A DNA stretch of 46,715 nt from a virus. Below the pieces are notes generated by a model, which worked only from the letters and a program-made list of their open reading frames with translations, ran no database searches and was not told the origin of the DNA. Positions 1-46,715 of the stretch are shown here, one piece after another. The DNA is taken from IMG/VR virus record IMGVR_UViG_3300025009_000167, positions 1 to 46,715 of that record. One strand, 5' to 3'. A program made the position numbers and the translations under genes. Every line of letters starts with the position of its first letter. The first letter of the stretch is position 1.

Positions 1-75
1 GGAGCACTCTGAGGCTTTCGCCGTGGCGTAGATCGCCTCCCGGCGGGCATATTCGGCCGCGTTCTGCTCACTCAC
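1..75 (-). CDS. Partial coding region running off the left edge
   Basis: An open minus-strand frame runs from GTG at 75 to the window edge and reads VSEQNAAEYARREAIY and onward, an alanine- and charge-rich composition typical of coding DNA. Upstream, the frame meets a TAA inside the left-end hairpin of the TnpB element. Either the gene starts at this GTG or its 5' part was displaced by the insertion. No clear Shine-Dalgarno sequence precedes the GTG. The function cannot be assigned. Confidence 0.35.
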   Translation of the reverse strand, partial: MSEQNAAEYARREAIYATAKASECS

Positions 76-95
76 AAAACGTAGGGCCGTGGAAG

Positions 96-116
96 CCCCG
101 TCTCTTTAGAGCGGGG
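96..116 (+). repeat. Left subterminal hairpin of the TnpB element
   Basis: CCCCG pairs with CGGGG and CTC with GAG, with one bulged T and a TTTA loop. Layout and loop match the right-end hairpin at 1290-1309. It could alternatively be the right end of an older, deleted element. Confidence 0.5.
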
Positions 117-161
117 AGGAAACGACCCCAGCCCGTCAAGGGCTGTCCTCCTTTCGTTGTA

Positions 162-191
162 TTGACTCAAGGCTTGACTTTCCGGTATAAT
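162..191 (+). promoter_or_regulatory. Sigma70-type promoter of tnpB, apparently leaderless
   Basis: The -35 box TTGACT (162-167), an 18-bp spacer and a perfect -10 box TATAAT (186-191) are followed by 6 nt and then the ATG at 198. Transcription starting 7 nt after the -10 box would begin at the A of the start codon. A second TTGACT lies at 174-179 but is too close to the -10 box. Confidence 0.65.
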
Positions 192-197
192 GTGTCT

Positions 198-1316
198 ATG
201 AAACTGACCGCTAAGGTTAAATTGAATCCCACGCCCGAACAGACCCAAGCACTGCGCGACACTCTTGCCAAGGCTAACGCCGTCTGCAATCAGATTAGCG
301 AGTGGGTATGGGAGCACCAGACGTTCGGCCAGTGGACGCTTCAGAAACAACTCTACTATTCTCTCCGAGCTTCTTCTGGCTTGTCGGCGCAAATGACCGT
401 CCGTGCCATTGCCAAGGTCGCCGATGCCTACAAGTTGGACAAGAAGCGCAAGCGCACTTTCAAGCCGACCGGCTCTATTGCCTACGACGAGAGGATTCTC
501 CGCTGGCACGTTGACAAGCGCACGATTTCTATTTGGACTACTGCCGGTCGAATGCTGATACCGTTCGTTTGCGGTGAGCATCAAGCCGCCCTCCTCAAAA
601 CCCAGCAAGGCGAATCGGACCTTGGCTATCTGGGTGGCAGTTTCTACTTGTTTGCTACCTGCAATGTTGAGGAACCCATACCGCAAGACGTTAAGGGCGT
701 GCTGGGCGTTGACCTCGGTATCAAGAACATTGCCGCCGACTCTGATGGAACTCTCTATTCTGGTGCTCAGGCCAACGGGCTTAGGCGACGCCATCGTAGG
801 CTTAGGGCGAAGCTCCAAACGAAGGGCACGAAGTCGGCTAGGAGGCTTCTTGTAGCCAGACGCCGGAAAGAAGGACGATTCGGAACTGACATCAACCACT
901 GCATTTCTAAGCGCATAGTTGCCAACGCTCAAGGCACCGGACGGGCGATTGCTCTTGAACAACTCAAGGGTATAACCAGACGGGTAAAAGTTCGCAGCGG
1001 CCAGAGGGCAACTTTGCATTCGTGGTCCTTCTCTCAGTTGGCTAGTTTTATCAGTTACAAGGCCAGGGTTGCAGGGATACCCGTATTTTTCGTCGATCCC
1101 CGGAACACCTCTCGTACGTGTCCCTCTTGTGGCTCTATCGATAAGGCTAACCGACCTTCTCAATCTCGTTTCCTCTGTGTGTCGTGCGGATTTTCTGGAA
1201 TCCCTGACACGATCGCGGCTGGCATCATCGCCAGTCGGGCCGCAGTCAATCGGCCATACGCGGTGAGGATTCAACCCCCTAACTGCAAGCCTCCGGCTTT
1301 AGCCGGGGGTAGTTGA
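198..1316 (+). CDS. tnpB: TnpB RNA-guided nuclease (IS200/IS605 OrfB family)
   Basis: The 372-aa protein has the TnpB layout. The N-terminal half starts MKLTAKVKLNPTPEQ. A split RuvC nuclease domain follows, with Asp172 in GVDLGIKN, Glu254 in ALEQLKGI and Asp337 in PDTIAAG, plus a zinc ribbon (Cys308, 311, 327, 330). Active TnpB uses an omegaRNA from the 3' end of its own gene through the right-end hairpin to cut DNA next to a short motif; all three catalytic acidic residues are visible here. ATG 198 is chosen over upstream codons because it follows the promoter by one turn. No tnpA is nearby. The guide would be the flank starting at about 1319. Confidence 0.9.
   Translation: MKLTAKVKLNPTPEQTQALRDTLAKANAVCNQISEWVWEHQTFGQWTLQKQLYYSLRASSGLSAQMTVRAIAKVADAYKLDKKRKRTFKPTGSIAYDERILRWHVDKRTISIWTTAGRMLIPFVCGEHQAALLKTQQGESDLGYLGGSFYLFATCNVEEPIPQDVKGVLGVDLGIKNIAADSDGTLYSGAQANGLRRRHRRLRAKLQTKGTKSARRLLVARRRKEGRFGTDINHCISKRIVANAQGTGRAIALEQLKGITRRVKVRSGQRATLHSWSFSQLASFISYKARVAGIPVFFVDPRNTSRTCPSCGSIDKANRPSQSRFLCVSCGFSGIPDTIAAGIIASRAAVNRPYAVRIQPPNCKPPALAGGS
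1290..1309 (+). ncRNA. Right-end hairpin and probable 3' part of the omegaRNA scaffold
   Basis: An 8-bp stem (1290-1297 with 1302-1309, one T-G pair) carries a TTTA loop and overlaps the last codons of tnpB. In the IS605 family this is the right-end palindrome and the end of the guide-RNA scaffold. The guide is the adjoining host sequence. Confidence 0.55.
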
Positions 1317-2276: not shown

Positions 2277-2613
2277 CGGGGTTGGCATCCTCTGCCGACT
2301 TCTGCCCATCCTCCACCATCTCCCATTCATTGTAGAGATTGCGGACGACCGTGCCGAAGCTGCCATCCTTACGCCGAGGATGTCCAGCGAGCCATGGCTT
2401 TCCGTACTTATCGGATATCTCCACCACTTGGTATTCCAGCCCGCGTCTTTTGACGATCATCCCCTCATAGAGGCCCCACTTGGCCTTAATCAGGAGCAAT
2501 TCCTGTGCGCTAATTTCTGCATTGAGCCGGCGCCGATCTTCCAGGAGAGGCTCCAGTCTAGCTTCCAGCACCGCCAATTGCCTTTTAAGCTCATGTAATT
2601 CCCACTTAGCCAT
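2269..2613 (-). CDS. Coiled-coil protein with small beta-rich C-terminus, 114 aa
   Basis: Residues 1-45 form a heptad-like coiled coil (MAKWELHELKRQLAVLEARL and on). The C-terminal part (YEGMIVKRRGLEYQVVEISD, GKPWLAGHPRRKDGSFGT) looks like a small SH3- or KOW-like beta domain. The start is ATG 2613, which overlaps the stop of the gene upstream (ATGGCTAA) after GAGGAG. No family recognised. Confidence 0.7.
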   Translation of the reverse strand: MAKWELHELKRQLAVLEARLEPLLEDRRRLNAEISAQELLLIKAKWGLYEGMIVKRRGLEYQVVEISDKYGKPWLAGHPRRKDGSFGTVVRNLYNEWEMVEDGQKSAEDANPDA

Positions 2614-3136
2614 CGGGGTTCTCCTCTCTCCCGAAGATCGTCTGTCCATTCCAGGGACATTCTGGACAGAGTTCGGCGTGCAGCGCCAGCAACTCAGGCA
2701 TATGCTGTGCGATGTTCTCAACTCCCAGCCGGGTGCTCTCGGCCCACAGCCGGGTGCTCTCGGTCCACAGCCGGGTGCTCTCGGCCCACAGCCGGTGGCC
2801 CTCCTCCCACAGCCGGGTGCCCTCGGCCCACAGCCGGGTGCTCTCGGTCCACAGCCGGCTGGCCTCGGCCCACAGCCGGTGGCCCTCCTCCCACAGCCGG
2901 TTGCCCTCGGCCCGCAGCCGGTCGCTCTCCTCCCGCAGCCGGGTGCTCTCGTTCACCGCTTCCGCCAATCCAGCGGATAGGCGCTCAGGCGGGACCATCT
3001 GGAAGAGTCGGAGACGAAGAGGCCGCTCTGCTGGGGGCTTCTCCTGCTTGATGTACGCCACGCGCTCGTCGTAGTTTGTCACAAACTCGACTAGCCTGTC
3101 GTGGTGGCAGTGAAACGCCACCCCTGATTTAGCCAT
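2606..3136 (-). CDS. Heptad-repeat coiled-coil protein, 176 aa (paralogue of 42244-42774)
   Basis: Three parts are visible. The N-terminal domain has HCHHDRLVEFV and RLRLFQMVPPERL. The middle has about a dozen tandem 7-residue units of the type RLWAE(G/S)(T/H/N), encoded by a 21-nt repeat. The C-terminal domain has HMPELLALHAELCPECPWNG. The HCHH cluster and CPEC pair could bind a metal. The heptads should form a long alpha-helical coiled coil with Leu and Trp at core positions. A clear paralogue with the same length and domain order lies at the other end of the window. It shares ATGGCTAA start/stop overlaps with both neighbours. Function unknown. Confidence 0.8.
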   Translation of the reverse strand: MAKSGVAFHCHHDRLVEFVTNYDERVAYIKQEKPPAERPLRLRLFQMVPPERLSAGLAEAVNESTRLREESDRLRAEGNRLWEEGHRLWAEASRLWTESTRLWAEGTRLWEEGHRLWAESTRLWTESTRLWAESTRLGVENIAQHMPELLALHAELCPECPWNGQTIFGREENPDG

Positions 3137-4204: not shown

Positions 4205-4251
4205 ACCAGTGGATTATACCATCATCCATCCACCACTCAGTTTTCACTGGT
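4205..4251 (-). promoter_or_regulatory. Promoter/operator of the XRE gene
   Basis: A perfect -10 TATAAT (minus strand, 4213-4218) lies between inverted ACCAGTG (4205-4211) and CACTGGT (4245-4251). The -35 region is weak. The arrangement suggests repressor binding on both sides of the promoter. It overlaps the 3' end of the amidase frame. Confidence 0.5.
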
Positions 4252-4722
4252 GATTCCCCTAAACAGATCCCACATTCCGCCCGGACATTCTGTCTCCCAT
4301 CCCGGGAGAGCCAGGTCGCGGTGGCCTCGGACTTCGGCCCACGGCACTTGCGCTTTAAGTTTGACGATCAGCCACCGCAACGATTCGAGCATGACTAGCG
4401 GCGGGCTCTGGTGAGACCAGTCCCCGGCTAGGCAGATACCCACGGCGTCATGGTTATGTTCGTGAATATGGTAGGACATGGCGGTGATGTCATGGAGCCA
4501 GTCAATGCTGCCGTCCCAATGGAGCAGGTAATGATACCCCACCGCGGGCCATCCCTTCGTGCCCACGTGGTAGTCAGCGATCTCCTTAGCCGTGAAGTCC
4601 CGCTCGGCCCCCGCCGTGTGGTGAATCGCTAACCACTTAATCGCTGGGTAGGAGCGGGTCGGATAGACGCCGGTGGCCGGTAGCAGACCCCGCAGGTCGA
4701 TTACCCGCGGGGCGCTCAGGCT
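4237..4722 (-). CDS. N-acetylmuramoyl-L-alanine amidase domain, -1 frame extension of the upstream lysin
   Basis: The frame encodes a complete Amidase_2/PGRP-type domain: VIDLRGLLP, then IHHTAG (zinc His), then GWPAVGYHYLLHWDGSI, EVRGHRD (zinc His) and TECPGG (zinc Cys). It cleaves the MurNAc-L-Ala bond of peptidoglycan. The conserved domain begins directly after the stop of the upstream gene with no ATG, GTG or TTG and no Shine-Dalgarno. The first GTG (4566) lies after the catalytic IHHTAG. The frame enters from a CCCTTTA heptamer, so the likely product is a fusion made by -1 frameshifting. A disabling indel is the alternative. Confidence 0.85.
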   Translation of the reverse strand, partial: SLSAPRVIDLRGLLPATGVYPTRSYPAIKWLAIHHTAGAERDFTAKEIADYHVGTKGWPAVGYHYLLHWDGSIDWLHDITAMSYHIHEHNHDAVGICLAGDWSHQSPPLVMLESLRWLIVKLKAQVPWAEVRGHRDLALPGWETECPGGMWDLFRGITSEN

Positions 4723-5978: not shown

Positions 5979-6356
5979 TTACCTTCTCCTTCCCGGCTGT
6001 GCCTTTCGCTGAAAATGTGGTTGCTCCACGTTCCACGAACTCACAAGGGCGATATCCTCCCGCATCGGCGCTCCGTGCGTTCGCAGTTGGTGCCCGGCGT
6101 GTCGCAGTTGAAACGCCCTCGTCAGGTTAGGCACCCCGTTCCAGAACGTCATCGTCTCTGTGAGTCCGCACGAGCACTGCACGTAGCGGGCGACCTCATT
6201 CATCACTGCCCTCCGCCGTGGCCGGCCGCCCCGGTCCGGCGTGTCTTCGGCACAGACGGGGAAGGGGCAAGCCAAGCACCGGGAGCCAGGCCCGGCCTTC
6301 TCGCACCCGCGGTCCTCGTGCGTACCAATGTGGGTTCCGCCTAGCGGTCTGGACAT
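5979..6356 (-). CDS. Cys-cluster protein, possible zinc-binding regulator, 125 aa
   Basis: The N-terminal region holds a Cys cluster (GCEKAGPGSRCLACPFPVC, positions about 18-36) of the C-x8-CxxCPxxxC type, and CSCG follows near residue 60. Such clusters occur in small zinc-binding phage regulators. The rest is not recognised. ATG 6356 shares one base with the stop of the RNA ligase gene (TGATG), so the two are coupled. The Arg-rich C-terminus could bind nucleic acid. Confidence 0.6.
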   Translation of the reverse strand: MSRPLGGTHIGTHEDRGCEKAGPGSRCLACPFPVCAEDTPDRGGRPRRRAVMNEVARYVQCSCGLTETMTFWNGVPNLTRAFQLRHAGHQLRTHGAPMREDIALVSSWNVEQPHFQRKAQPGRRR

Positions 6357-7300
6357 CAGGCGCCCCCTAGCCCAGGCTCCAGCAGCGTTTCATCCTCAAA
6401 CTGACGTTTGAGCAATTCTCCTTTGTAGTGTTCTGGGAGCCCTCGCACCACTCCACGCTTGATTTTGGGCAACGCCCATTCCAACAACTTTGTTGCGATC
6501 AGGTCCACGCATTCCTTTTCGATGTCGGCATGAACCTCTTTAATTAGAGCGCCGATATCGCGAGGCGAATCCTCAATCTGGCTCAACTCGCGCAAGTGCT
6601 GAACTGCCTTGTTCCATCGGGCCGGTGTCCGTAGAGAGAAAATTAATTCCTCAATAATATCAGACTTCGAGGGATTTGCTTCCTTCCACGCGGCAGCGTG
6701 AACCTCCTTAAATCCTTCGGAAACAAACTTGCCGATCAGCACGTGTTTATCTAGCCCAAAGCGGGAGTAGTTTTTGACCACGACTCCCTCTACTTTTTGG
6801 CCACCGAGAATTGATGGTTGGTCCAGCAGCCCTCGGAACATCTGGACATCGCTCACCATACCCTCATAGATGCGCGGCACTGTCTCAAGTCCCAGGCGTT
6901 TGGCTTCCATAACCTTATCATCGTAGGGTAAGTACAACTCGTGGTCAGTATTGATGTCGAAGATTATCAGATTTTTTTCGGGTACACGGTCATAGGCCAA
7001 AGCGTTGTGCCGCGCCTTTTGCAGGTATTCAGCCCGATATGTCCATCCAGGATGCAGGGGCAAGCTGTTGATGATTTCTATTGCTTTGTGAAACATCTTC
7101 TCAGGGGCTACCAGATTAAGTTCTGCCCCTTTTGAACGGGCCTTCAGCGTCAATTCTCCCATATCATCGAGGAATATTCCCCACGAGAATTGGCTGCCAT
7201 CGATTTTTTCCTCAACCAGCACGGGGTCAAGGAACAGTTCTGCCAACGCCCGGTGCCCCAAGGCAAAGATACTCGGGTAGGAATGCCAACTATTAGTCAT
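6356..7300 (-). CDS. RNA ligase, T4 Rnl2-like nucleotidyltransferase
   Basis: The 314-aa protein has the covalent nucleotidyltransferase motifs in order. Motif I is EKIDGSQFS with Lys32 as the AMP-accepting residue. It is followed by YRAEYL near 89-94, IIFDI near 112-116, motif IV VEGVVVKN (170-177) and motif V LIGKFVSE (Lys191). A roughly 120-residue helical C-terminal domain follows. Such enzymes seal nicks in RNA, often to repair host anticodon-nuclease damage. The start is ATG 7300; a TTG at 7351 is less likely. It stands among lysis genes rather than with replication or tRNA genes. Confidence 0.9.
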   Translation of the reverse strand: MTNSWHSYPSIFALGHRALAELFLDPVLVEEKIDGSQFSWGIFLDDMGELTLKARSKGAELNLVAPEKMFHKAIEIINSLPLHPGWTYRAEYLQKARHNALAYDRVPEKNLIIFDINTDHELYLPYDDKVMEAKRLGLETVPRIYEGMVSDVQMFRGLLDQPSILGGQKVEGVVVKNYSRFGLDKHVLIGKFVSEGFKEVHAAAWKEANPSKSDIIEELIFSLRTPARWNKAVQHLRELSQIEDSPRDIGALIKEVHADIEKECVDLIATKLLEWALPKIKRGVVRGLPEHYKGELLKRQFEDETLLEPGLGGA

Positions 7301-7396
7301 GACGCCCCACATCCAGGGGCCAGGAGAGTCCAGGCACCCCCCTGGCTCCAAACATCTTTGGCACTTTGGAAATACGGACGGAGAGGTTCTCTGACT

Positions 7397-7600
7397 CTAG
7401 CTATTCTTTTCACGGCCCAAGACTCCTTTCCCCGTTATATTCCCCTGTGGCCTGGCACGTGAGGTTCGCAAAATAGCCGTTACGCGCTGACGGGAAATCC
7501 GGAAGGCTTTGGCTAGCGCGGCATGGGTCATTTCAGGGTGTCGCTCATGCCACCAGAAAATGAGGTCGTTTCGTTGGCGCTTTGCTTGCAAGGTGTACAT
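7397..7600 (-). CDS. Small HTH protein, 67 aa, leaderless
   Basis: NDLIFWWHERHPEMTHAALA, then KAFRISRQRVTAILR, is a helix-turn-helix resembling sigma-factor region 4 or a resolvase-type HTH. It has its own promoter: TTGCTA, a 17-bp spacer and TATACT, then 6 nt and the ATG, with no Shine-Dalgarno. It may act as a transcription regulator of the lysis block. Inference from motif only. Confidence 0.7.
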   Translation of the reverse strand: MYTLQAKRQRNDLIFWWHERHPEMTHAALAKAFRISRQRVTAILRTSRARPQGNITGKGVLGREKNS

Positions 7601-7606
7601 GTGAGA

Positions 7607-7635
7607 AGTATAGCATAACTATTGCCATTTAGCAA
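7607..7635 (-). promoter_or_regulatory. Promoter with 6-nt -10 to ATG spacing
   Basis: On the minus strand: TTGCTA (7630-7635), 17 bp, TATACT (7607-7612), TCTCAC, ATG. The predicted transcription start coincides with the start codon. Confidence 0.6.
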
Positions 7636-7684
7636 TAGGGGAGTTTTGCGGGTTTTGGCTTAGCTCGGAGTTGGTTCGTTGATG

Positions 7685-8026
7685 CTATACCCGCCGCTGA
7701 ATTTCCTCGTGCAGATTATGCAGGGACTCGCGCAGTTCTTCCCTGAATTTGGCCAGGTCTACGCTGAGACGATTTTCGATCTTCTCCATATCACCCTTCA
7801 ATTCCAGTCGGGTCTTGTCCAGGGCTGCATTAAAATCCCGCTTAGCAGGGCACTGGAAGGCATGGAGCGTAACCTTGGCGTCCACGAGGTCCTGCACTGC
7901 CCGCCGTTCCTGCCCATTCCACTCTTTCGGAGCCGACCGGGAGATGGCCGCAACCGTCACCTTGGCGAACCAGCCCATCGCTACCCCTGCCAGGCCGATC
8001 AGTGAGACCAGGACGGTGGGGTCCAC
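7685..8026 (-). CDS. Membrane-anchored coiled-coil protein, 113 aa (possible spanin-like)
   Basis: One N-terminal hydrophobic helix (VLVSLIGLAGVAMGWFA) is followed by a long, charged coiled coil to the C-terminus (LELKGDMEKIENRL and on). This layout suits an inner-membrane spanin (Rz-like) or a holin-associated protein. It lies between the fibre genes and the lysis block. The start is GTG 8026 with GGAG about 8 nt upstream. No lipoprotein partner is obvious next to it. Confidence 0.55.
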   Translation of the reverse strand: MDPTVLVSLIGLAGVAMGWFAKVTVAAISRSAPKEWNGQERRAVQDLVDAKVTLHAFQCPAKRDFNAALDKTRLELKGDMEKIENRLSVDLAKFREELRESLHNLHEEIQRRV

Positions 8027-8048
8027 CTACGACTCCGCCACGAGCAGT

Positions 8049-8201
8049 CTAGGTCCCATCGGAGTTCCCGCCCTGAATGGGAGGCTGTACCTCCAGCTCC
8101 TGGATCCGGGCTAGCAGCTTCTCCCGCTCAGTCCGCAGCGCGTCCAGGGACTGGTGCGCCGTGAATAGGGCTGACAAGATTTGGGTTAGGGTGCTGTCCA
8201 T
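8049..8201 (-). CDS. Small coiled-coil protein, 50 aa
   Basis: MDSTLTQILSALFTAHQSLD, then ALRTEREKLLARIQELEVQP: an amphipathic N-terminal helix and then a coiled coil, with a Gly-rich tail. It follows the stop of the upstream ORF by 1 nt, and GGAG lies inside that ORF. Function unknown. Confidence 0.6.
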   Translation of the reverse strand: MDSTLTQILSALFTAHQSLDALRTEREKLLARIQELEVQPPIQGGNSDGT

Positions 8202-8202
8202 C

Positions 8203-8376
8203 TCAGGCTCCTTCGCTTGTCTCGTAGGTAAACTCGGAAGTGTATTCTATGTTAGCATGGAACTTTGGAACAAACTCACAAGTTGGGTCGGAAACCGTGC
8301 CGTCAGGGTAAACCTTCCCTCGAACGATGACTATAGGTCCCTTGGTCAGGGTCTGGGCGGAATCGGTGTCGTCCAT
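8203..8376 (-). CDS. Small hypothetical protein, 57 aa
   Basis: Begins MDDTDSAQTLTKGPIVIVRG and continues with KVYPDGTVSDPTCEF. It is beta-prone and acidic. A strong AAGGAGG lies 7 nt upstream. It sits between the fibre gene and the 50-aa coiled-coil gene. Not recognised. Confidence 0.65.
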   Translation of the reverse strand: MDDTDSAQTLTKGPIVIVRGKVYPDGTVSDPTCEFVPKFHANIEYTSEFTYETSEGA

Positions 8377-8385
8377 TTTGCCTCC

Positions 8386-39673: not shown

Positions 39674-39700
39674 CGATGGACACGAAAGGAGCAAGCTATC

Positions 39701-40135
39701 ATGTCCAAGCCCAGTATAGCACGGAAGCTCACACCTACCCAGGCCCAAGTGTTCAGCCGCTACTCCGAAGCGAACGCCTCCAAAGTAGTCAGTACGCTAA
39801 CCTGTGGCTGCCAACCGTACCAGGATGTGTTCACCTACGGCCGCTGGCAAGCGATGGGATTCCAGGTACAGCGAGGAGAGAAGGCGATTCGCCTTCCCTT
39901 AATCAAGGAGGTCCAGGACGCGGATACCGAAGAAACCAAGCGGGTGAAGGGCATGAGCTTCGTGTTCTGTCGGCACCAGGTCCAACCCGCCAATGGCGAG
40001 AGCACCCCGCAACCACGGCCGCAGGCAGCACAAGGTACAGCAGAAGCACAGGGATTCACAGTTGCCGGATTCTACAACACAAAGCCCAGTGCCGATCGCA
40101 CCGAGAGCCTAATGGAAGGGTGGAAAGCGCTATGA
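39701..40135 (+). CDS. ArdC-like ssDNA-binding domain protein, 144 aa
   Basis: Contains YGRWQAMGFQVQRGEKAIRL and a later KGMSFVFCRHQV, resembling the N-terminal domain of ArdC-type antirestriction proteins (W-x-GxxVxxGEKxI). ArdC binds ssDNA and protects incoming DNA. The metalloprotease half is absent, so this would be a binding domain only. ATG 39701 has AAAGGAG upstream; the TGA overlaps the next ATG (ATGA). Confidence 0.6.
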   Translation: MSKPSIARKLTPTQAQVFSRYSEANASKVVSTLTCGCQPYQDVFTYGRWQAMGFQVQRGEKAIRLPLIKEVQDADTEETKRVKGMSFVFCRHQVQPANGESTPQPRPQAAQGTAEAQGFTVAGFYNTKPSADRTESLMEGWKAL

Positions 40136-40845
40136 CTACCACGGCTACCGTCTCCGATGCACTACTAGAGAAAATTACCGCTCTGCTGCGGATGGCAGAG
40201 CATCCGAACAGCAACCCCAACGAGGCCGCCCTTGCATTGGAGCGCGCACAGGCGCTTTTACTCAAGCACAACCTGGACAGGGCCAGCTTGGATACCGGCA
40301 ACGGTAAGGGCGAGACTGAAAAGGCCGGGATGCTTGATCTTGGATACGATCATAACTGGCGCCCAACCTTAGCGCACGTTATCGCCAAAGCGAATCTATG
40401 CCGGGTAATACGGTCTCCGGCCGACAGCAAGATTCACCTGTTCGGGACCAGGACCAACGTGCGGGTAGTCCTTTCTATGTACCTGTGGATTGGCGAACAA
40501 CTCGAAGGCATGGCTCTCAAGGACTTCAAAACCTACCGGGCCAGCGGCGGCCGGACGCATGGCACAACGTGGAAGACCAGCTACTTTATCGGCGCCGTGT
40601 CCACTCTGCGCGACCGCCTAGCCAAGCCCCTTGAGGCGTTCGCTCAAGGGGAAGGTCGGGCACTGGTACTCTACCAAAAGGACCTCGTAGACAGAGCCGT
40701 CAAAGGCGTATTCCCGCACCTGGCGCGTGGTAGTGCCGGGCGTGCCACATCCAACGAGGGACTGACCGCTGGACGTCAGGCCGGTAGCCGGGTGTCGTTC
40801 TCACGGCCGGGCACTCTAACCAGCGGCCGGTTACTCTTATCCTAG
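40132..40845 (+). CDS. DUF2786 domain protein, 237 aa
   Basis: The N-terminal 45 residues match DUF2786 (LEKITALLRMAEHPNSNPNE, then AALALERAQALLLKHNL). The middle segment (TNVRVVLSMYLWIGEQLEGM, then SYFIGAVSTLRDRL) is shared with many phage and plasmid proteins of this class. The biochemical role is unknown. Coupled to the ArdC-like gene by a 4-nt overlap, a common pairing in mobile elements. Confidence 0.8.
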   Translation: MTTTATVSDALLEKITALLRMAEHPNSNPNEAALALERAQALLLKHNLDRASLDTGNGKGETEKAGMLDLGYDHNWRPTLAHVIAKANLCRVIRSPADSKIHLFGTRTNVRVVLSMYLWIGEQLEGMALKDFKTYRASGGRTHGTTWKTSYFIGAVSTLRDRLAKPLEAFAQGEGRALVLYQKDLVDRAVKGVFPHLARGSAGRATSNEGLTAGRQAGSRVSFSRPGTLTSGRLLLS

Positions 40846-40854
40846 GCAGAGTCA

Positions 40855-40870
40855 AGGCCCTTCGGGGCCT
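40855..40870 (+). terminator. UUCG-capped hairpin
   Basis: AGGCCC-TTCG-GGGCCT, a 6-bp stem with a UUCG tetraloop, 10 nt past the DUF2786 stop. No U-run, so RNA-stability or processing is as likely as termination. Confidence 0.5.
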
Positions 40871-40901
40871 GTAATGCGCAAGGCCGGTGACAAGCCCGGC
40901 G

Positions 40902-42161: not shown

Positions 42162-42200
42162 CCCCTGCCGCCTGGGTCAGCCCCAAGCGAGAGGGACTAA

Positions 42201-42236
42201 AGCCAGCCCGGTCGCGAGGCCGGGCGTTGAAAGGAG
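42201..42236 (+). repeat. GNRA-hairpin repeat R4
   Basis: CCGGTC-GCGA-GGCCGG (42208-42223), with C replacing U at the outer U-G pair (C-G, compensatory), then GCGTTGAAAGGAG. Precedes the heptad-repeat gene. Confidence 0.85.
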
Positions 42237-42243
42237 AACGGGA

Positions 42244-42774
42244 ATGGACGAGCTAGGGGTGCACTGCCATCACGATGTACTCCTCGAGATCGTAACCAGC
42301 TTCGAGAAGCGCGTGGAATATATCCGCGCCAATAAGCCCGCATCGGAAATCCCGCTCCGCCTGAGGCTGTTTCAACTCATCCCGCCTGAGCGCCTCCCCG
42401 CCGCGCTGGGGGAGACACGGGACGAGGGCAGACGCCTGTGGACCGAGGGCAACCGCCTACGGGACGAGGGCAGCCGCCTGTGGGCCGAGGGCAGACGCCT
42501 ACGTGCCGAGGGCGACCGCCTGTGGATCGAGGGCGACCGCCTACGGGCTGAGGACAACCGCCTGTGGATCGAGGGTGACCGCCTGTGGGCCGAGGGCACC
42601 CGGCTGTGGACCGAGGGCAACCGCCTACGGTCCGAGGGCAACCGCCTACGGGACGAGGGCATTGCTGCGCACATGCCGGCACTACTCGCGCTCCATGCCG
42701 CGCTTTGCCCCGATTGCCCGTGGGATGGGAAAACCATCTTCACTCACCAGAACCAGGATGGCACGTGGTATTGA
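42244..42774 (+). CDS. Heptad-repeat coiled-coil protein, 176 aa (paralogue of 2606-3136)
   Basis: Same architecture and length as the minus-strand protein at 2606. The N-terminal domain has VHCHHDVLLEIV and RLRLFQLIPPERL, and about a dozen tandem heptads of type RLWxEGD/N follow (RLWIEGDRLRAEDNRLW). The C-terminal domain has HMPALLALHAALCPDCPWDG. Start at ATG 42244, 7 nt after AAAGGAG; the frame upstream is a shadow. Should form a rod-like coiled coil with Cys/His end domains. Unknown function. Confidence 0.8.
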   Translation: MDELGVHCHHDVLLEIVTSFEKRVEYIRANKPASEIPLRLRLFQLIPPERLPAALGETRDEGRRLWTEGNRLRDEGSRLWAEGRRLRAEGDRLWIEGDRLRAEDNRLWIEGDRLWAEGTRLWTEGNRLRSEGNRLRDEGIAAHMPALLALHAALCPDCPWDGKTIFTHQNQDGTWY

Positions 42775-44972: not shown

Positions 44973-45425
44973 ATGAAGTCCACACGATGTTGGTGGGACG
45001 CTACGAATAGAGTTATCACCGTTTACCTCACTCCCCAACAAAAAACGGGGTACTGGTGGGAGGATGGGGAGCCATCTGACCGCGATTACTTTGAAGCTAT
45101 GGGCAAAGACCAGATCGTGGCGGACATGGAATCCGGCCCGTACACCATAAATATCGTGCAGGTGCGGAACAAGCTGGCGGCGCAGCCTACGCTGTTGCCA
45201 AAGGGAGCACTTGTGGACCCACCTGCACCTAGCCTCCCGCCCCATAATTGCACGCCTGTTTCTGTGGGTCGGTGGAGCCCGTGGCAACGTTCGCGTCGCT
45301 ACATTTTCAGGACATGTAGCTGCGGGCACGTGTACCGCTTAGGCCGAGTAGTCAGTCCGGTCGTGAGGCCGGGCGTTGGAATGAGAGGGGACGATGGTTA
45401 CAACTACAACTACAGAAATCCGTAG
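44973..45425 (+). CDS. Hypothetical protein, 150 aa, reading through the next repeat
   Basis: MKSTRCWWDATNRVITVYLT, then KTGYWWEDGEPSDRDYFEAM. A Cys-rich C-terminal part CSCGHVYRLG follows. The frame does not stop before hairpin R12: its last 20 or so residues (SPVVRPGVGMRGDDGYNY) are translated repeat and overlap the start of the next gene by 32 nt. A lost stop codon after YRLGRV is the likely cause. Confidence 0.6.
   Translation: MKSTRCWWDATNRVITVYLTPQQKTGYWWEDGEPSDRDYFEAMGKDQIVADMESGPYTINIVQVRNKLAAQPTLLPKGALVDPPAPSLPPHNCTPVSVGRWSPWQRSRRYIFRTCSCGHVYRLGRVVSPVVRPGVGMRGDDGYNYNYRNP
45351..45390 (+). repeat. GNRA-hairpin repeat R12
   Basis: CCGGTC-GTGA-GGCCGG (45357-45372), then GCGTTGGAATGAGAGG, a weaker Shine-Dalgarno than the other copies. 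Lies inside the 3' end of the 44973 frame. Confidence 0.85.
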
Positions 45426-46227
45426 CTGGCCAATAACGCACGGCTGGCACACTAGCCCCGGCGGCCAGCGCGTGAGCCTGGGGGACGGCGTGAGCCTGGG
45501 GGACGGCGTGCGCCTGGGGAACAACGTGAGCCTGGGGAACGGCGTGAGCCTGGAGAACAACGTGAGCCTGGGGAACGGCGTGAGCCTGGGGAACAACGTG
45601 AGCCTGGGGGACGGCGTGCGCCTGGGGGACGGCGTGAGCCTGGGGAACAACGTGAGCCTGGGGAACAACGTGAGCATGGGGGACGGCGTGAGCCTGGGGA
45701 ACAACGTGAGCCTGGGGAACTACGTGAGCCTGGGAGACGGCGTGAGCCTGGGGGACGGCGTGAGCCTGGGGAACAACGTGAGCCTGGGGAACAACGTGAG
45801 CCTGGGGGACGGCGTGCGCCTGGGGAACAACGTGAGCCTGGGGAACGGCGTGCGCCTGGGAGACGGCGTGACTAGCGAGGCATTGAACGAATGTTTCCGC
45901 CAAGCGTACCTCTCTGGTTCAGAAACCCACATCTTTTGGAAATGGGTGACTCCTGCCCGGAAGTCCCCCAATTTCGATGGGGGTACGGTGCTGACGTACG
46001 CGCAGGAAGCCGTCGTCGAGGCGGAGGCCGTAGTGAGCGATCAGCAGTGCGCGGCGGGGCTGCATGTGCTGCGTCCCGGATACCGGCCGGAATGGGTGGG
46101 ACTGTGCGCCCCTGGCCACGATCTGATTTGCCTGCGGGTGGAAGTGGCCAGCGCGGATATTCTGTTTGCCGGCCTACCTACGATGGACGCGAAGGTCCGG
46201 GTGCAGAGACTCAAGGTGCTGGATTAA
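45394..46227 (+). CDS. Hexapeptide-repeat left-handed beta-helix protein, 277 aa
   Basis: After 26 residues, 22 uninterrupted hexapeptides of type VSLGDG/VSLGNN/VRLGDG follow. Read as L-G-x-x-V-S they fit the [LIV]-[GAED]-x2-[STAV]-x rule of left-handed beta-helices, about seven turns. The C-terminal 120 residues end CAAGLHVLRPGYRPEWVG, then VEVASADILFAG and AKVRVQRLKVLD, resembling a C-terminal domain (CxxGLHV, KVRVxRxKVL) that follows pentapeptide or hexapeptide repeats in other phage proteins. No acyltransferase His loop. Possibly a DNA- or protein-mimic rod (inference). Confidence 0.8.
   Translation: MVTTTTTEIRSWPITHGWHTSPGGQRVSLGDGVSLGDGVRLGNNVSLGNGVSLENNVSLGNGVSLGNNVSLGDGVRLGDGVSLGNNVSLGNNVSMGDGVSLGNNVSLGNYVSLGDGVSLGDGVSLGNNVSLGNNVSLGDGVRLGNNVSLGNGVRLGDGVTSEALNECFRQAYLSGSETHIFWKWVTPARKSPNFDGGTVLTYAQEAVVEAEAVVSDQQCAAGLHVLRPGYRPEWVGLCAPGHDLICLRVEVASADILFAGLPTMDAKVRVQRLKVLD
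45472..45867 (+). repeat. 18-nt tandem repeat, 22 units
   Basis: In-frame repeat of GTGAGCCTGGGGGACGGC-type units with two common variants (GGGGACGGC and GGGAACAAC). Encodes the beta-helix hexads. High identity between units implies recent expansion or gene conversion. Confidence 0.85.
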
Positions 46228-46286: not shown

Positions 46287-46715
46287 GTGAGCTACAACAT
46301 GACGACCCTAACCACCACGCTCCGGCTGCTCCGGCAGCACGACGCGTGCACTAATCGGTACCCCCACCTGCGCTCGGCCCTGGGGCCACACTACAGCCAC
46401 GACCGCCCCATCACGCTCCTGCAAATCCTGGACCTGAACGGCCTGGATGACGCGCTCTGGGCGTTGCGGGCCGTACCGGCGGAACAAGAACAGGAGCGAG
46501 ACCGTTTCGCCCGCGTGCTGGCCTGCGACTACGCGGAGCATGTGCTGCCGATTTTCGAGGCCCTCTGCCCTCACGACAGCCGACCGCGGGAGGCTATCGC
46601 AGTGGCCCGACGCTTCGCCGCCGCCGAGGCCAGCAGGGAAGAACTCGACGCCGCCGAGTCCGCCGCCAGGTCCGCCTGGTCCGCCGCCGAGTCCGCCGCC
46701 AGGTCCGCCTGGTTT
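46287..46715 (+). CDS. Imm5-like immunity-family protein, 3' end outside the window
   Basis: Starts at GTG 46287 (VSYNMTTLTTTLRLLRQHDA). It contains ILDLNGLDDALWALRAV, ACDYAEHVLPIFEALCPHDS and RPREAIAVARRFAAAE, matching the Imm5-type pattern (C-x-AE-x-VLP-x-FE; D-x-RP-x-EAI). An Ala/Ser/Arg-rich repeat SAAESAARSAW then runs into the window edge. Imm5 proteins were named as predicted toxin immunity proteins; phage copies have unknown roles. At least 143 codons are present. Confidence 0.75.
   Translation, partial: MSYNMTTLTTTLRLLRQHDACTNRYPHLRSALGPHYSHDRPITLLQILDLNGLDDALWALRAVPAEQEQERDRFARVLACDYAEHVLPIFEALCPHDSRPREAIAVARRFAAAEASREELDAAESAARSAWSAAESAARSAWF

Follow-up and report, generated by a model that had tools for sequence, protein, structure and literature searches.

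A mostly phage-borne protein family with conserved Cys/His ends and a length-variable heptad array

DksA/TraR proteins (Pfam zf-dksA_traR) combine a small zinc domain with a coiled-coil hairpin; their zinc finger is of the C4 type with two Cys pairs, the hairpin is of fixed length, and phage and plasmid members are known. Proteins of the HP0958/FlgZ type have a long antiparallel helical hairpin with a terminal zinc domain, the zinc ribbon being wholly C-terminal. TAL effectors are built of near-identical DNA repeats that differ at few surface codons and are present in variable number between constant flanking domains; the repeats are about 34 residues long (33-35), residues 12 and 13 are hypervariable, and the DNA code is known. 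Among proteins of the hairpin plus C-terminal zinc ribbon type, MSMEG_4306 is described in PMC5947703. Coiled-coil spacers are recognised by divergent sequence with conserved length (PMC5082667).

The window analysed here (the whole stretch of DNA, an IMG/VR viral record of 46,715 nt) encodes two related proteins, P0001 and P0002 (Table 1). As stated in the original prediction, both are 176 aa in size and have the same domain order, i.e., HCHHD, RLRLFQ..PPERL, an array of RLxxExx heptads, and HMPxLLALHAxLCPxCPW; the array, predicted to hold about a dozen heptads, is present, but the exact count is 11 in each protein. The 7-residue period of the two arrays is far above that of shuffled sequences (z of 20.9 and 21.6), and at the DNA level both arrays are 21-nt tandem repeats. 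The Trp residue that had been placed at a core heptad position probably does not belong to the core, because the alignment with relatives puts it in place of Tyr at position e, beside the L/A core residue at position d. Our tree of the end domains joined P0001 and P0002 as sisters (99/87), supporting their paralogy, and comparison of their N halves gave a dS of 2.78 and a dN of 0.26 (dN/dS about 0.09), with synonymous sites saturated in the C halves. The two genes are indeed on opposite strands, with about 39 kb between them, but the phrase "opposite ends" describes their place in the window alone. The same phage is also represented by a 59,695-base record, with the genes at 7,855-8,382 (minus strand) and 47,483-48,010 (plus strand); the two ends of this record have 77 identical bases in common, so the phage genome is probably complete there. 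P0001 and P0002 are best read as a pair that arose by lineage-specific duplication within a protein family that had not been described before and is carried mostly by phages.

Table 1. Positions of the two family genes, their parts and the P0002 leader in the window
Feature	Position	Strand	Basis or remark
P0001 gene, family copy 1, 176 aa	2606..3136	-	Translation; 100% identical in two further viral contigs
P0001 N-terminal half of conserved domain, aa 1-53 (HCHHD, YxERVxYI, RLRLF, PPERL)	2978..3136	-	Alignment
P0001 array, 11 heptads RLxxExx, aa 66-142	2711..2941	-	DNA repeat and periodicity
P0001 C-terminal half of conserved domain, aa 143-176, LHAELCPECPWNGQTIF	2609..2710	-	Alignment
P0002 leader: 8-bp stem, GNRA tetraloop, then ribosome-binding site	42196..42243	+	One of 12 such leaders
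P0002 gene, family copy 2, 176 aa	42244..42774	+	Translation; 61% identical to P0001
P0002 N-terminal half of conserved domain, aa 1-51	42244..42396	+	P0001/P0002 comparison
P0002 array, 11 heptads, aa 64-140; W or R at position e	42433..42663	+	DNA repeat
P0002 C-terminal half of conserved domain, aa 141-176, LHAALCPDCPWDGKTIF	42664..42771	+	Alignment

Searches for close relatives with P0001 and P0002 returned the same phage only. The profile search for HCHHD-heptad-CPxCPW proteins that had been suggested with the original prediction recovered 49 distinct family copies, which are distributed over about 36 uncultivated phage contigs and Ca. Yanofskybacteria chromosomes. In viral contigs, the two-sequence alignment detected 8 loci, the C-terminal motif alone 40, and the joined end domains 37 (these sets overlap), and in the genome scan the five-member alignment detected 0 loci and the end-domain alignment 7. 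Phage contigs G036 and G064 carry four copies each (clustered across the record ends in G064), G060 carries three, and G042, G044, and G067 carry two each. The family was absent from the 50,697 deposited phage records of INPHARED (protein search with four queries), and the end domains had no match in any Pfam, NCBIfam, or PHROG model, the matches found being weak and repeat-driven. A PDB sequence search gave only weak matches, either to coiled coils or artefactual, the single match in PLSDB was to the array only (a Burkholderia multivorans replicon, 42% identity), and a literature search for the HCHHD motif gave no paper. Judging from these sequence comparisons, the two window proteins and their relatives, about 45 in number, are not described by any of the protein-family libraries searched. 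Family members resemble the alanine-zipper coiled coils (Pfam PF11839, Lpp) in having Ala at positions a and d, and PF11839 matches 6 of 31 members within the array (best, 2.9e-8; no match for P0001 and P0002), but they have no lipoprotein layout and their end domains lie outside that family.

In cells the gene occurs sporadically, being present in 4 of the 45 genomes from one order and in 1 of the 379 genomes that sample the phylum, which indicates no cellular core function. The neighbours in Yanofskybacteria are ordinary chromosomal genes (glutaredoxin, pyridine-nucleotide oxidoreductase, RpiB, and UDP-glucose dehydrogenase), and those in phages are mixed early or accessory genes (DUF5131, methyltransferase, RecT/ERF, SSB, nucleases, and ParB-like), with a few terminase and portal genes; the most frequent of them, DUF5131, accounts for only 3 of the 82 neighbour proteins scanned. 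Some members match tail-fibre and tape-measure PHROGs weakly, as might be expected of a virion or tail-associated structural coiled-coil protein, but these matches cover the repeats alone. Such a role is very unlikely in our view, considering also the mixed phage neighbours and the occurrence of the gene among housekeeping genes of Yanofskybacteria chromosomes.

The conservation of the Cys/His end domains, which had been noticed in the two window copies, holds across the family alignment of 41 sequences. The N-terminal segment has the consensus [WF]HxHHDxLxE...ER..YI..KP..E..LRLRLF, and the C-terminal segment has the consensus LHxxECPxCPW[DN]GxTIF. The invariant positions (alignment numbering) include H7 in the N half as well as H103, C107, C110, W112, and G114. 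In P0001, the residues H9, H11, H12, R25, I29, K33, E37, R41, and L44 of the N half are invariant or nearly so, and H153, C157, C160, W162, and G164 of the C half are at least 90% conserved. There is a single conserved CxxC in each family protein, and L165, which comes from the same bacterial order and is divergent, has lost HxHH and kept the first His and HxxxCPxCPW. Probably, the N-terminal His and HxxxCxxC would form one metal site, with zinc suggested by this conservation pattern. We propose a split domain, whose N half (HxHHD ... RLRLF) and C half (HxxxCPxCPWDGxTIF) would be clamped together by zinc through the N-terminal His and His-x3-Cys-x2-Cys. Adjoining the family gene in L015, an ORF at 7525-7989 (plus strand) encodes a protein in which LDERVEYINECKP is joined to FCPDCPWNGETIFP without an array, and it may be an array-less relative, with a weak N-domain score. 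In this ORF, YINECKP is almost directly joined to the CPDCPWNGETIFP motif, an arrangement that insertion of the arm into a single domain would predict.

The array had been regarded as a rod, but structure prediction of P0001 alone modelled it as a hairpin and not as a rod running from end to end. The AlphaFold model obtained with the family alignment (pLDDT 94.6, pTM 0.82) contains two helices, 55-98 and 100-144, and structural alignments of residues 54-145 led to known helical hairpins (the SerRS arm, HlyD, CHMP1B, FadA, and the Tsr tip), and to HP0958 (3na7), with Z-scores that are in the range reached by any hairpin and show no kinship. Judging from the two-helix model and these matches, the P0001 arm most likely doubles back on itself, bringing both ends together so that the halves of the conserved domain meet. 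The model of L046, a relative of 119 aa, is a single continuous helix of 41 residues with no hairpin, so that in this protein contact between the domain halves could be made only from one chain to another; the models suggest antiparallel dimers with swapped ends for short arms or, alternatively, a hairpin that is not common to the whole family. The fold searches yielded nothing useful for L046, those with P0001 yielded generic hairpins only, and hairpin-specific breaks were not clearly enriched at array midpoints among about 13 interior phase jumps and about 10 interior prolines.

The hairpin modelled for P0001 between two parts of a small Cys/His domain has the same gross layout as an RNA-polymerase secondary-channel factor like DksA/TraR or Gre, i.e., a zinc domain with a hairpin tip reaching the active site, and the fact that TraR-type factors are carried by phages and plasmids also speaks for this possibility. 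The hairpin is predicted for P0001 and not for L046. However, the family has a single CxxC plus H and HxxxC in place of the C4 finger. Its arms vary more than two-fold, which is too much for a probe of fixed depth, and the repetitive array is without a distinct conserved tip sequence. In addition, no match to the DksA/TraR or HP0958-type zinc-ribbon Pfam families was present among the matches listed for family members, and we regard a secondary-channel factor as highly improbable. HP0958/FlgZ and MSMEG_4306 are similar in their long antiparallel helical hairpin with a terminal zinc domain, whereas the conserved domain of the present family is apparently split across both ends, has one CxxC and not two, and shows no sequence match to them.

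The equal length of P0001 and P0002 had been taken to suggest that rod length is selected, a view that did not survive comparison across the family, in which the distance from HxHH to the first Cys ranges from 95 to 213 residues (49 distinct copies, of which a few are partial or weak). A period of 7 is clear in 29 of the 43 arrays tested and a period of 11 in 5, several have none, and members L031, L041, and L056 have hardly any repeat. In the clearest case, the loci L064 and L067 of two Yanofskybacteria genomes are collinear over several kb with 83-91% DNA identity, and the gene is in the same place and encodes proteins of 146 and 202 aa, a difference of 56 aa or 8 heptads. The tandem paralogues in G044 have closely similar end domains and arrays that are 84 residues (12 heptads) apart, and the four copies in G036 have H-to-Cys distances of 119, 122, 158, and 160, the copies at 160 and 122 having identical end domains. 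Equal length in a single pair is weak evidence for length selection: exactly equal H-to-Cys length is found in about 2% of all family pairs and, by our estimate, in roughly 15% of those within the same heptad register. For sister proteins such as P0001 and P0002, the same length may be either inheritance or coincidence.

A length-measuring rod or a matched hetero-oligomer, in which the array fixes the distance between the end domains, would explain why both window copies are equal in length despite 39% divergence, and the L046 model leaves room for single-helix chains to dimerise antiparallel, an arrangement in which the two partners would tend to be equally long. Nevertheless, orthologues and same-phage paralogues that are 8 and 12 heptads apart, together with the range of distances among the four G036 copies, contradict it at the family level, and we consider this explanation very improbable. 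Of the two observations that the original prediction named as arguing against a rod, widely varying repeat number was found and a lack of end-domain conservation was not, the ends being conserved. The family resembles coiled-coil spacers in having a repetitive coiled coil between two conserved domains, but length, conserved in the spacers (PMC5082667), is the variable part here, the opposite of a spacer. Considering the DNA repeats and the length differences between orthologues, the array would grow and shrink in 21-nt (or 33-nt) units by replication slippage or unequal recombination.

The end domains of 11 pairs of relatives differ at codon positions 1/2/3 by 0.16/0.11/0.27, and in these coding sequences the order 3>1>2 is the usual signature of purifying selection. 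The order is reversed between adjacent array units (0.26/0.29/0.16 in 20 arrays; nominal Fisher p about 1e-20, with non-independent sites and a heptad-phase rule chosen by the analyst). The rates at positions 1/2/3 are 0.63/0.45/0.26 for heptad phase b, 0.40/0.53/0.15 for f, and 0.26/0.49/0.16 for e, as compared with about 0.05-0.15 for d, g, and a, which are nearly constant, third bases included; b, f, and e are mostly the outward phases if d is L/A and a is A/G/S. Unit-to-unit pN/pS is >1 in 13 of 17 arrays, reaching 4.5, and <1 in the other 4. For instance, the units of L063 read GTT TAT nnT GAA GCA nnC nnG with the remaining positions almost fixed, and the variable codons are GGT/TTT/GTT/GAT/AAT and TGC/AAC/GAC/CTC. 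Adenine-targeted mutagenesis by a diversity-generating retroelement was considered and rejected, because TAT, GAA, and GCA, the constant codons of L063, keep their adenines in all six units.

These rates also bear on whether the array is a passive linker, i.e., a tolerated minisatellite whose helical form is maintained through purifying selection on the core and which drifts at exposed positions, only the end domain being of importance. This would agree with the free variation of array length and even period, with the three members that have hardly any repeat, and with the strong constraint on the end domains. It predicts equal rates at codon positions 1, 2, and 3 in the exposed phases, but in phases b, f, and e the rates at positions 1 and 2 are about two to three times that at position 3, and we think a passive linker rather unlikely, although it deserves to be taken seriously. 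Hexapeptide-repeat proteins, which are unrelated to the heptad family, show the same codon pattern (pN/pS of 4.3 in this phage and 4.0 in phage L103), and it is possible that a mutational or general effect of coding repeats in these phages explains the pattern as well.

The array may be likened to that of TAL effectors in the way it works, and only in this sense: differences are concentrated at few surface codons, repeat number is variable, and the flanks are constant. Unlike TAL effectors, the present family has units of 7 or 11 residues, a coiled coil, and no known ligand. In the most specific version of this comparison, each heptad of a modular recognition arm would combine a constant packing core with two or three repeat-variable outward residues, the number and order of units would specify a changing partner, and phages and a few Yanofskybacteria would make new versions by unit duplication and diversifying selection; on our analysis this is distinctly unlikely.

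Several features of the surroundings may be noted. P0001 is near the left window end, downstream of an amidase-like ORF (4237-4566, read from the sequence) and a small HTH gene, and P0002 belongs to a series of small plus-strand genes that have hairpin leaders with GNRA tetraloops in front of them. There are 12 such intergenic leaders of about 48 nt between 41232 and 46287 (plus strand; 12 pattern matches vs. 0.29 expected), each with an 8-bp GC-rich stem, a GNRA tetraloop (GCGA/GUGA/GAGA), and then a ribosome-binding site, and they stand immediately ahead of most plus-strand genes. A type-P5 twister ribozyme (Rfam RF02684, 51.3 bits) is located at 40845-40899 (plus strand), its start being the last base of a DUF2786/DUF7168 gene (39676-40845). 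A TnpB-type (IS605 OrfB) element occupies 72-1315 (plus strand); its site is uninterrupted in the related 59.7-kb record, where window positions 1-71 are joined to 1316. This phage also encodes an RNA ligase (PF09414, 1.5e-11) at 6356-7351 (minus strand). Other coding repeats were observed as well. The hexapeptide-repeat (VSLGNx) protein of this phage, with 22 units and a unit-to-unit pN/pS of about 4.3, is encoded at 45394-46227 (plus strand), and a similar gene lies directly upstream of the heptad-family gene in L103. A further coding minisatellite of this phage is the Ala-rich tandem array AAESAARSAW in an Imm5-like protein (PF21805), which is encoded at 46287-46715 (plus strand) and is complete as L120:6527-7099. 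An ORF at L120:8437-9528 (minus strand) resembles a DNA adenine methyltransferase, as read from the sequence, and has an internal array of GDDGQGVNRKLVHL-type repeats.

Taken as a whole, we tentatively favour a split domain, probably clamped by zinc, from which an arm of free length extends that diversifies and serves for recognition or as a decoy; its architecture and variability are supported, and the function of the family is what we infer from them. The arm would be an alpha-helical coiled-coil array between the domain halves, with small residues or Leu in the core, and is predicted to form a hairpin in P0001. With the array core constant and the outward b, f, and e residues diversified, putatively by diversifying selection, the arm would present a changing surface on a constant anchor, and its length would be free to vary. 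The anchor would bind a conserved partner or itself, and in conflicts of phages with their hosts or with one another the arm would most likely offer a surface for recognition or a decoy. For repeat proteins in general, equal length of two paralogues should not be taken to mean a molecular ruler without data from the family. The present family is widespread in uncultivated phages, yet missing from phage genomes that have been deposited and from the family libraries that were searched. The inverted codon-position pattern of its arrays is testable from population sequence data without knowing the function, and a molecule engaged in an arms race would be expected to look like this, with a strongly conserved base and a surface arm that changes fast and varies in length.
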